Shown here: positions 10,895-18,674 of the stretch, piece by piece | Layout of the letters: the number at the start of each line of letters is the position of its first letter | Position numbering within the stretch: the first letter of the stretch is position 1 | Source: Nitrospira sp. | Lineage (GTDB): Bacteria; Nitrospirota; Nitrospiria; Nitrospirales; Nitrospiraceae | NCBI GenBank assembly: GCA_024998595.1 | Contig: JACOEK010000010.1 | Coordinates: forward strand, 1 to 64,000 | Reading direction: 5' to 3' | DNA length: 64,000 nt | Notes under the pieces: generated by a model | What the model was told of the DNA's origin: nothing | The model's database searches: none | The model's input: the letters and a program-made list of their open reading frames with translations, nothing else | Program-made: the position numbers and the translations under genes

Positions 10895-12100
10895 ATGGAA
10901 CCCACATCCGTCATCGGAACCAAAAATAAAAAAGGCCAGGTCTTCACCGACCCCCGCATCATGATGCGGGAGGCGCCTCGTACGCCGTCTTTTTATACCG
11001 GCAGCGAAGTCATTAAGGAAGCCATCCGTCGCGCTAGCATCGACGTGATGATCGCGTATCCGATCACACCGCAAAGCGAGGCCGCTGCATTGATCGGCGA
11101 GCTGTTTGCGGAGGGCTACATCGGAGACTATTTCCGCGGGGAAAGTGAATTTGCCGTGATGTCGCAATGCGCAGGGGCCGCTTTCGGCGGAGCCCGTGTC
11201 TTCACGACGACGGCAGGACCCGGCACGATGCGGGCGATGGAAAATTTCCCCATGTGGGCGGGTGCCCGCCTCCCGATCCAATGTATCGTGACCTGCCGGG
11301 GGATCAATTCCCCGCTGTCGATTCAACCGGACACCATCGAGATTTCCTATTTGATGCAGACAGGCATGCTTGTCTGGCATGCGGAGACGGCGCAAGACTT
11401 CTATGATTGGATTCTCGTGGGCTATATGGTGTCGGAGGAGCCCGAGGTGCATTTGCCATTGGCGCTCTGCTGCGACGGATTCTTTGTGACGCACACCAAA
11501 GACGTTGTCGATCTGACGCCGACAGATATGTGTCTGCCGCCCTACGACCCGTATCGTTCACCGGTGCCTTGCATGGATATGGAATGTCCGCCGGTCCGGA
11601 TGATGCGCGATCCGTTCATCATGAAAAGCAACTACATCAGTTATGCCACGCACGCGAGCTGGCAGCAGGAGGTCTGGGCTGCTGCAGAACGGTCGCGGAA
11701 GCACACGATTGCCTGGTTGAACGGGTTAATCGAAACTGAAGATGTTGAGGCCGACGTGCTCATCGTCACCTCCGGTACCGCCGTGTCTCAGGGGCGTGAA
11801 GCGATTCGTCTTCTGGCCGATGAAGGTATTCGCGTGGGACTGGTGAAGATCAAAACGCTCCGGCCCTGGCCGGAAGAGGAAATTAAGGAAGCCACCAAGC
11901 ACGCCACTCACATCATTGTGCCGGAATTCAATGTCATCGGGTGGATGGCGAAGGAGATCAAGGCGACCATTCCACGAAGTGAGCGTGTCATCGCCGGTCC
12001 GCGAGTGTGTGGCGGGATGACCATGCCGCCAGAGATCATCGTGGAGGAAATTAAGCGCGCGCTTGGGGTGCGTTCCGGCACGCTCGCCGGTCGCGGTTGA
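10895..12100 (+). CDS. porA: 2-oxoacid:ferredoxin oxidoreductase, alpha subunit
   Basis: The 401-residue alpha subunit of a pyruvate- or 2-oxoacid:ferredoxin oxidoreductase provides the substrate and pyrophosphate domains. YPITPQS at 55-61 is the thiamine-contacting motif, RGESEFAVMSQCAGAAFGGAR and TTAGPGTMRAMENF follow, and the C-terminal domain II runs to about 390 with VLIVTSGTAVSQGREAIRLL. In autotrophs such enzymes fix CO2 onto acetyl- or succinyl-CoA in the reductive TCA cycle. ATG 10895 follows AAGGAGG. Whether pyruvate or 2-oxoglutarate is the substrate cannot be read from sequence. Gamma and delta genes are absent here. Confidence 0.9.
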   Translation: MEPTSVIGTKNKKGQVFTDPRIMMREAPRTPSFYTGSEVIKEAIRRASIDVMIAYPITPQSEAAALIGELFAEGYIGDYFRGESEFAVMSQCAGAAFGGARVFTTTAGPGTMRAMENFPMWAGARLPIQCIVTCRGINSPLSIQPDTIEISYLMQTGMLVWHAETAQDFYDWILVGYMVSEEPEVHLPLALCCDGFFVTHTKDVVDLTPTDMCLPPYDPYRSPVPCMDMECPPVRMMRDPFIMKSNYISYATHASWQQEVWAAAERSRKHTIAWLNGLIETEDVEADVLIVTSGTAVSQGREAIRLLADEGIRVGLVKIKTLRPWPEEEIKEATKHATHIIVPEFNVIGWMAKEIKATIPRSERVIAGPRVCGGMTMPPEIIVEEIKRALGVRSGTLAGRG

Positions 12101-12182
12101 CGCGTCGAGCGCCGGAGGACGACAAGAGTTTCTAGACGGTATATCGCACATTGACGCTCAGCAGAGCTGAGAGGAGATAGAG

Positions 12183-13079
12183 ATGAGCAAAGAACGCATC
12201 AAGATTTCGCCGGAACTGTACGACATCATGCCGTCGGACTACCAGGACCTGGTCAGCAGCGCGACCTATGGCAAGGAAGACCGGGGATGGAAAGACATCG
12301 GTACCTCCAAGGAACTCATCGAACAGCACTCACTCTGTGCCGGATGTCCTGAATCCATGGCCTTTCGCTATATTTTAGCGTCGCTTCCCAACCCCGAAGA
12401 TACGGTCATGGTTGGCTCGACCGGCTGTACGAGTCTCGTGTTTCCGATGGTGGCCGTCCACAACATCCACTCCCTGTTCGGCAACCAGAATGCGATCGCG
12501 TCGGGGCTCAAACGTGCGTTGAGTGTCCGCTTTCCTGATCGGATCAAGGATGTGGTCGTGTTGGCGGGGGATGGTGCGACGGTGGACATCGGCCTGGACA
12601 TGACCCTGCAGGCCTGGTTTCGGCAAGAAAAGTTCACAACCATCTGCTTCGATAACGAACTCTACGCCAACACGGGCGGGCAGGAGAGCGGTCTAATGCA
12701 GAAGGGCTTCGTGGCCAAGATGGCGCCGGTCGGAAAACTGTTCGATAAGGTCAGGTTGCCTGAAATTGCCCGGGAGTCCGGCTGTCACTACGTGGTCAAT
12801 TGCACGGTCAGCAAGCCCTCTCTGGTCGAGAAGGTGGTGCGCAACGCCGTACTGATCGCGCGTGAAATCGGGCCGACCTATCTGCAACTCTATACGCCCT
12901 GCATTCTGGAGATCGGCAAGAACAGCATGGAAGGTCTGCAGGAAATGCGGGACTCTGAGAAGCCCACGGAGCGTTTTGCCTTCAAGGAATACATCAGCGA
13001 GCCGGCGAAACAGCTCTTAGCGGAGCGTGATGCCAAAGCCAAAGAAAAGAAAGCCGCTGCCAAGCAACTGGTGTCGTAA
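12183..13079 (+). CDS. porB: 2-oxoacid:ferredoxin oxidoreductase, beta subunit 1
   Basis: The 298-residue beta subunit binds thiamine diphosphate and one 4Fe-4S cluster. Cluster cysteines are C52 and C55 (CAGC), C82 (STGC) and C240 (YTPC). The TPP/Mg motif is AGDGATVDIG (GDG 129-131) with DNELYANTGGQ at 157-167. GAGGAGA lies just before the ATG. The C-terminal 30 residues are Lys/Ala-rich. It lies 82 bases after the alpha gene and 52 bases before a second, homologous beta gene. Confidence 0.9.
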   Translation: MSKERIKISPELYDIMPSDYQDLVSSATYGKEDRGWKDIGTSKELIEQHSLCAGCPESMAFRYILASLPNPEDTVMVGSTGCTSLVFPMVAVHNIHSLFGNQNAIASGLKRALSVRFPDRIKDVVVLAGDGATVDIGLDMTLQAWFRQEKFTTICFDNELYANTGGQESGLMQKGFVAKMAPVGKLFDKVRLPEIARESGCHYVVNCTVSKPSLVEKVVRNAVLIAREIGPTYLQLYTPCILEIGKNSMEGLQEMRDSEKPTERFAFKEYISEPAKQLLAERDAKAKEKKAAAKQLVS

Positions 13080-13131
13080 GCGATAGGATTATCACCGCCG
13101 CTTCCGCGGCAATGAGAGAGCGAGGTTTTAG

Positions 13132-14025
13132 ATGAGTCTTGATTATGTGAAGTTTGCACCGGGTTTCGAGCAGTTTATGCCGAAAGAATATCGGGATATG
13201 GTCGAACATGGACCATTCGGAAAAAAGACTACGGTATCGCAGATGGGCAGCTTCAAGGAAATCCTGGAAGAACACCCGATGTGTGCCGGTTGTGCCATGA
13301 CTCTGTTCATCCGGTTGGCGATTATTGCCTTTCCGAATCCCGAAGATACCATTACCGTCGGAACGGCCGGTTGCGGACGATTGGCGATTTCCCAAGCAGC
13401 AATCCCGTTCGTGTACGGGAACTACGGCGACCAGAACGGTGTCGCGAGCGGTTTATCGCGCGGACTTCGGCTCCGTTTCGGCGACAAGCCGAAAGATGTG
13501 GTGGTGATTGCAGGTGACGGCGGAACCGCCGACATTGGCTTTCAGCAGGTGCTGCATTCCTGGTTCCGGAAGGAACGGTTTACGACCATCATGTTGGATA
13601 ACGAAGTGTACGGCAATACCGGCGGGCAGGAAAGCGGGATGACGACCCGTGGCGCTGTGTTGAAAATGGCTCCGCTCGGCAAGAAGTTCGAAAAAATGGA
13701 CATGGTCACGATGGCCAAAGTCGCCGGCTGTTCCTATATCGCCACGGTCGTGCCAAACAATCCGCGGCGGGTGGAAAGCGTCATCAAAAAGGCCGTATTG
13801 ATCGCCCGGGACATCGGCCCGACCTATATTCAAGCCTATACCTCATGCAACATCGAGTACGCGATTCCGACCGACAAGGTGATGGAAGACGCCAAGACGG
13901 TCGAAGACGATCGGTACAAGTTTACCGAGTACGTCAGTGACGAAGCGAAGGCCTATCTGGCCGAGCGATACGGCTACAAGGAATTTATGCCGAAAGCCGT
14001 GTCTGCTTCAGTTACAACGGCTTGA
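13132..14025 (+). CDS. 2-oxoacid:ferredoxin oxidoreductase, beta subunit 2
   Basis: The 297-residue protein is a full-length paralogue of the preceding beta subunit. It keeps every cofactor ligand at the same spacing: C51, C54, C81 and C239, AGDGGTADIG (GDG 128-130) and DNEVYGNTGGQ (156-166). By eye roughly half the positions are identical to beta 1, with the main differences in the first 50 residues, the segment after the third cysteine (GRLAISQAAIPFVYGNYGD) and the C-terminus. It could give the shared alpha subunit a second substrate range or form a mixed complex. A strong hairpin at 14080-14108 closes the operon. Confidence 0.88.
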   Translation: MSLDYVKFAPGFEQFMPKEYRDMVEHGPFGKKTTVSQMGSFKEILEEHPMCAGCAMTLFIRLAIIAFPNPEDTITVGTAGCGRLAISQAAIPFVYGNYGDQNGVASGLSRGLRLRFGDKPKDVVVIAGDGGTADIGFQQVLHSWFRKERFTTIMLDNEVYGNTGGQESGMTTRGAVLKMAPLGKKFEKMDMVTMAKVAGCSYIATVVPNNPRRVESVIKKAVLIARDIGPTYIQAYTSCNIEYAIPTDKVMEDAKTVEDDRYKFTEYVSDEAKAYLAERYGYKEFMPKAVSASVTTA

Positions 14026-18135: not shown

Positions 18136-18168
18136 CCAGGAACCTCTGTTTAGTACAGAGGTTCCTGG
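18136..18168. terminator. Perfect 14-base-pair palindrome between convergent genes
   Basis: CCAGGAACCTCTGT (18136-18149) pairs exactly with ACAGAGGTTCCTGG (18155-18168), loop TTAGT. It lies where the plus-strand gene ending at 18113 and the minus-strand gene ending at 18150 meet, so it may act as a bidirectional terminator, although no T-run follows on either strand. The stop codon of the minus-strand gene lies inside its loop. Confidence 0.55.
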
Positions 18169-18338
18169 GGTCCCCACCGTAACCCTTCCAGATCGGGATC
18201 TTCTCCCTCCGATGTCACGGGCCGGTCTGGCTTCTCGGTTTTACGTTGTACGCGACGGGCTTCCTTTTCCCGCTGTTTCACTTGCCTGGCTTTTTCTCGA
18301 TCGCGTTTCGCGATAGTGGTCTTGCCTGCTCGTGCGAT
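18150..18338 (-). CDS. Small highly charged protein with an apparent ATC start
   Basis: A 62-codon frame reads IARAGKTTIAKRDREKARQV, then a Lys/Arg/Glu-rich coil (KQREKEARRVQRKTEKPDRP) and an acidic end with DPDLEGLRWG. The first codon is ATC (18336-18338), five bases after a perfect AAGGAGG (18344-18350), while an in-frame TAG lies just before that site, so no upstream ATG, GTG or TTG exists. The first in-frame alternative is GTG at residue 20, which has no such site. Reading the first codon as Met gives MARAGK, a natural protein start. A sequencing or real mutation from ATG to ATC is the alternative. Confidence 0.6.
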   Translation of the reverse strand: MARAGKTTIAKRDREKARQVKQREKEARRVQRKTEKPDRPVTSEGEDPDLEGLRWGPQEPLY

Positions 18339-18392: not shown

Positions 18393-18674
18393 TTATGATC
18401 CGGCTGGTCGACGGACCGAGCGAGTTGCGCTCGTCCGAGCATGCGTCCGTGCCGGGCGCGCCTGCGTTTGTTCTGAGCGGGCGCGGGTCTCTGCTCCAAA
18501 TCCTGAACTGGCCAGTGCCGTGACTTCACGACGAATCTGATCCATCGGTGTCTCGTGCGAATCCACAGAGGGATCAACCAGACCGAGTTCGGTCCACCGT
18601 ATTCTCAGTTTGGGAACCGTCCGCTTCTTCTTATGATTGGGCTTGTTGCCACGCCAGACAGACGTTATTTTCAT
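18393..18674 (-). CDS. Small basic hypothetical protein
   Basis: The 93-residue product begins MKITSVWRGNKPNHKKKRTV, followed by PKLRIRWTELGLVDPSVDSH and METPMDQ-like residues; the last 35 residues are Arg/Thr/Ala-rich and low in complexity. AAAGGAG lies six bases before the ATG. The basic N-terminus suggests nucleic-acid contact. The C-terminal tail may be a frame continuing past an ancestral end. It lies 54 bases upstream of the ATC-start gene in the same direction and may share its transcript. No family is recognised. Confidence 0.6.
   Translation of the reverse strand: MKITSVWRGNKPNHKKKRTVPKLRIRWTELGLVDPSVDSHETPMDQIRREVTALASSGFGAETRARSEQTQARPARTHARTSATRSVRRPAGS

Follow-up and report, generated by a model that had tools for sequence, protein, structure and literature searches.

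The window analysed here, a stretch of 64,000 nucleotides from a Nitrospira sp. contig (JACOEK010000010.1), carries on its minus strand a small gene whose reading frame appears to begin with ATC. The features of this locus are as follows.

18150..18338, minus strand: gene for a small basic protein of 62 amino acids with an ATC start; stop codon TAA at 18152-18150
18338-18336, minus strand: the ATC start codon, shared by 110 of the 131 distinct homologues
18350-18344, minus strand: Shine-Dalgarno sequence AAGGAGG, with a spacer GAACC of 5 nt to the ATC
18353-18351, minus strand: TAG in the same frame, 5 codons before the ATC, closing the frame on its upstream side
18281-18279, minus strand: GTG, the first in-frame canonical codon downstream (codon 20), rejected as start
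18393..18674, minus strand: upstream neighbour gene, 93 amino acids, ATG start with AAAGGAG
18136..18168, minus strand: 14-bp hairpin across the stop codon, between convergent genes

On the minus strand of the window the frame reads TAG AAG GAG GGA ACC ATC GCA CGA GCA GGC and so on, with 62 codons from the ATC and no usable start codon between it and the TAG. The preliminary description had placed here a 62-codon frame opening with ATC 5 nt after a perfect AAGGAGG, a TAG directly before that site which excludes an upstream start, and a first in-frame GTG at codon 20, and these placements are all borne out. At this locus the standard list of open reading frames holds only a 43-amino-acid frame from the GTG at 18281. 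The hairpin has a perfect stem of 14 bp with the TAA stop in its loop and no run of T; the stem is preserved by paired changes across genomes of the same genus, and it is possible that it marks the 3′ end of an mRNA. Elsewhere in the window (10895-14025, plus strand) lie consecutive genes for pyruvate/2-oxoacid:ferredoxin oxidoreductase subunits, the first of which matches POR_N and PFOR_II.

A protein search found the small gene in 49 of 60 related genomes besides the source genome, including Candidatus Nitrospira defluvii and N. moscoviensis, both of which keep the ATC. ATC occupies this codon in each of the same-genus orthologues retrieved (L003 to L028), and likewise in 80 of the 80 loci found by scanning a species-level genome collection. 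The full set, from which identical sequences were removed, comprises 131 homologues, with ATC in 110, ATG in 15, GTG in three and ATT in one; the other two are paralogues with an ATG start of their own a few codons further in, and shorter ATG-start paralogues of this kind are present in some genomes. Three further sequences from family f4, counted separately, start with ATA, and family f2 has ATC or ATT. Other lineages have a canonical codon here: ATG or GTG stands precisely at the ATC position in genomes G034 and G186, in the second copy of G236 and in genus g20, the small gene of family f3 has ATG there, and in families f5 and f9 an ATG lies at that position or one codon away. Canonical codons exactly at the ATC position mark this codon as the start, whatever one assumes about how initiation takes place. 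The frame is closed upstream, its N-terminal part is conserved as protein ahead of the next canonical codon, the start and Shine-Dalgarno sequence are conserved in orthologues and a canonical start takes the same position elsewhere, all of which belongs to a genuine AUH start. Judged from this comparison, AUC is the genuine start of the small gene. In many orthologues (L106, L108, L109, L133 and others) AAGGAGG is followed by ATC ATC GGA, and either ATC could be the P-site codon.

The same orthologues bear on the ways in which the ATC could mislead. That it is a sequencing or assembly error for ATG, as the preliminary description proposed to check, is suggested by the rarity of ATC starts and by nothing else; since 110 distinct sequences, drawn from independent assemblies that include complete genomes, agree on the codon, the error is excluded for practical purposes. 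Translation from the downstream GTG, giving a 43-amino-acid product, is what a standard ORF caller reports, but the codon is GTG in just 12 of the 110 orthologues, the protein sequence of codons 2-19 is conserved although their silent sites vary, and the AAGGAGG sits at the ATC. The GTG at 18281-18279 is thereby refuted as the start and has next to no chance of being correct, and the earlier concern that orthologues might all begin there is answered by those with ATG or GTG, which start at the ATC position. One could also suppose that the frame starts further upstream, or is entered from the upstream gene through readthrough or a frameshift, leaving Ile1 an internal residue, since in some relatives the frame is open for tens of codons upstream. 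Many species, however, have an in-frame TAG or TGA just upstream, no common upstream peptide is found and the ATG orthologues begin exactly at this codon, so that we regard an upstream origin as extremely unlikely. Of the 110 orthologues, 39 have an in-frame stop within 10 codons upstream, reached ahead of any canonical codon, and only five have a canonical codon within that distance.

The upstream neighbour provides a useful control. A homologue of the 18393-18674 gene, whose 93-amino-acid product is basic and conserved, precedes the small gene on its own strand in 109 loci, and the two genes are probably in one operon. In the alignable cases the neighbour starts with ATG (87/92) or GTG (3/92), and the canonical starts of this co-directional gene imply that the ATC is special to the small gene rather than an artefact of assembly or lineage.

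The pattern of change around the start also speaks for selection. The Shine-Dalgarno columns from -12 to -6 are nearly invariant among the 110 sequences with ATC, with G at -10 and -7 in every one (110/110), while the silent sites of invariant residues are free to change, as in Thr8 (ACC 52, ACG 25, ACA 19, ACT 14). In the phylogeny of the gene the start codon changes at its third base five times, against a median of 29 and a minimum of eight changes for the third bases of codons 2 to 36. Codons 2 to 4 have low third-base change counts as well and mostly end in A, which suggests that the initiation region is constrained as a whole. On these counts, the AUC start is conserved and kept by selection, paired with a near-perfect Shine-Dalgarno sequence at 5 nt. 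A special initiator tRNA that reads AUC and starts the small gene and a few others would explain why the third base is nearly always C, even though AUU and AUA might serve equally. AUU and AUA are nevertheless present at this codon in relatives, and infC-type AUH starts elsewhere work with the ordinary initiator tRNA; we consider such a tRNA very unlikely. An RNA thermometer or riboswitch is likewise unsupported, given that the leader hairpin adjacent to the Shine-Dalgarno sequence folds no better than shuffled sequences in N. moscoviensis and is not general.

The 62-amino-acid protein has invariant positions that include K6, T8, K11, R12, R14, E15, K25 and R32, and a conserved tail, DPDL-G---GPQ-P. 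AlphaFold2 models a single basic helix over residues 9-35 with moderate confidence (mean pLDDT 69, pTM 0.34), and the model is too weak to give a basis for a fold search. Searches of Pfam, NCBIfam, PHROGs and PDB sequences returned no credible family, and a plasmid search gave no match. The protein is not IF3 itself, as it has no IF3 domains (no Pfam or NCBIfam match) and infC lies elsewhere in the genome. It perhaps binds RNA or ribosomes, and would be needed in small, tuned amounts.

How, then, might such a start be used? In the mechanism that we propose, the initiator fMet-tRNA would mispair with the third base of the AUC, and the near-perfect AAGGAGG, at its fixed distance, would hold the 30S subunit in place. 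Because IF3 rejects non-AUG codons in the P site, output from the AUC would be low, and it would rise when there is little IF3 for the number of 30S subunits, by the same logic as the feedback on infC. IF3 excludes weak third-base pairs in a reconstituted system (PMC10158994), and in Staphylococcus aureus infC (AUA), cvfC1 (AUU) and ccpN (AUA) combine an extended Shine-Dalgarno sequence with weak codons, the non-canonical starts giving about 10% of the output of AUG in poor medium, a share that for ccpN reaches as much as 30% in rich medium (PMC13009471). In Streptomyces, sigR has a GTC start that is repressed by IF3 (PMC5472188), and the AUU start of Escherichia coli pcnB limits translation according to Binns and Masters (2002), as cited in PMC13009471. 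We therefore read the preliminary description in two parts: its claim of a genuine ATC start is supported by the orthologues, whereas we infer the low output and IF3 dependence of the small gene by analogy, and the same sequence pattern would also be expected from a start that is weak at all times and not regulated through IF3.

That alternative, in which the AUC is genuine but acts as a fixed brake holding the protein at low abundance, with no physiologically meaningful response to IF3, is the main rival, and we hold it to be possible but doubtful. The ATG or GTG starts in G034, G186, g20 and one G236 copy show that the brake can be dropped, and no function or partner ties the 62-amino-acid protein to IF3. 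Against this, the AUC persists in many species together with an optimal Shine-Dalgarno sequence, where a weak Shine-Dalgarno sequence with AUG would presumably be the simpler route to low output. Translation from the AUC with a strong Shine-Dalgarno sequence and low, IF3-sensitive output is accordingly the reading that we judge most likely, and we consider it highly probable.

The start of infC itself offers a reference for this reading, and in the source genome it is found at a locus separate from that of the small gene.

G000:C6:204488-204985: infC in the source genome

In all relatives read from families f1, f2, f4, f5 and f9 infC starts with ATC, whereas in family f3 it starts with ATG (L052, L054, L056, L064, L081 and L191), so that the usual start-codon feedback of IF3 seems to have been lost in that family. 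The small gene, infC and the MFS gene described below are all canonical in family f3 where the start is readable. It is the more likely course that infC lost its AUC in f3. For the small gene, ATG in the outgroup families f5 and f9 points to an AUH start that was probably acquired once f3 had branched off and that probably gave way later to ATG or GTG on three or more occasions. The IF3 tree fits this order but is weak, being poorly resolved and with one row (G060) taken from the wrong frame, and the order of gains and losses therefore rests mainly on the family labels. In G034, G186 and genus g20 infC has AUC, yet the small gene has ATG or GTG, and non-AUG control of the small gene thus appears dispensable in some relatives.

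The rarity of such starts can be gauged from a strict census that covered 1.6 Mb, with 1132 predicted genes, of the closed genome of the congener G007. Three ATH starts were convincing, namely those of the small gene, of infC (the positive control) and of an MFS-acyltransferase fusion gene. Only one frame in this census, the small-gene orthologue, had its ATH codon 5 nt behind a 7-nt Shine-Dalgarno match while also scoring positively for coding, lying clear of other genes and lacking a canonical start further upstream. When G007 was compared with 0.4 Mb of N. defluvii (G023), 99 ortholog pairs had a conserved canonical start and Shine-Dalgarno sequence in both, and the credible ATC starts were those of the small gene and the MFS gene; the other ATH cases listed had a better canonical start available or were unconvincing.

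G007:C1:1858799-1862236, plus strand: gene for an MFS-acyltransferase-AMP-binding fusion (L324)
G000:C6:995997-996266, minus strand: locus of the MFS-acyltransferase-AMP-binding fusion gene in the source genome (L328)

By eye, the 1145-amino-acid translation of this gene appears to join an MFS transporter to an acyltransferase and an AMP-binding domain. It starts with ATC in 19 of the 19 same-genus genomes searched, usually behind AGGAGG, counting G010, where the alignment is one codon off and ATC GAT is present, and G004, where the Shine-Dalgarno sequence is weaker. In other genera of the family nearly all copies with a readable start have ATG, which implies that this AUC arose within the genus, independently of that in the small gene. 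By the same comparative measure, the MFS gene is a second, independent conserved AUC start in the same genus. It is tempting to combine these genes into a small IF3-sensing regulon in Nitrospira, consisting of infC, the basic 62-amino-acid protein as a ribosome- or RNA-binding factor and, in the genus of the window, the MFS-acyltransferase as a membrane-lipid protein, all with AUC and a Shine-Dalgarno sequence; we put this forward tentatively, as a somewhat unlikely proposal. If it were true, a fall in free IF3 would raise all these outputs at once, and the supply of ribosomes would thereby be coupled to the turnover of envelope lipids in these slow-growing nitrifiers.

The small gene shares with infC an AUH start conserved over large distances, and infC has AUC in the same Nitrospira genomes. 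The small protein is not IF3, however, so no autoregulatory loop is claimed for it, and the Shine-Dalgarno sequence of Nitrospira infC is weaker (GAGGTG) than the full AAGGAGG of the small gene. The S. aureus genes cvfC1 (AUU, 61 amino acids) and ccpN (AUA) are similar in having a conserved non-canonical start outside infC and a very strong Shine-Dalgarno sequence, and cvfC1 also encodes a protein of about 60 amino acids; they belong to other protein families and another phylum, and ribosome arrest and reporters were measured there, whereas the small gene is known by comparison alone. With sigR it has in common a non-canonical start conserved within a genus and an extended Shine-Dalgarno sequence, but sigR uses GTC, encodes a sigma factor with a regulatory partner and has been shown experimentally to be repressed by IF3. 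Like pcnB, it is a non-infC gene with an AUH start, limiting for translation in pcnB, which encodes a different protein, poly(A) polymerase.

To our knowledge, few bacterial genes besides infC are confirmed to have conserved non-canonical starts, and standard annotation cannot call them. In the literature searched we found no earlier report of such a start in Nitrospirota and no paper on Nitrospira start codons. On the evidence of its orthologues, the small gene is an addition to this small class that comes from a new phylum, one with many uncultured members, and is conserved to an unusual depth, its AUH start persisting in many species and three families. The second, independent example in the genus suggests that comparative scans could reveal IF3-tuned gene sets in any phylum, and the replacements by ATG, GTG, ATT and ATA amount to a natural experiment in how start codons are chosen. 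In some genomes of genus g6 the small gene has two or three copies, such as L218 and L219 (G236) or L220, L221 and L222 (G303), and in G236 one copy starts with ATC and another with ATG, which makes them a natural test pair.
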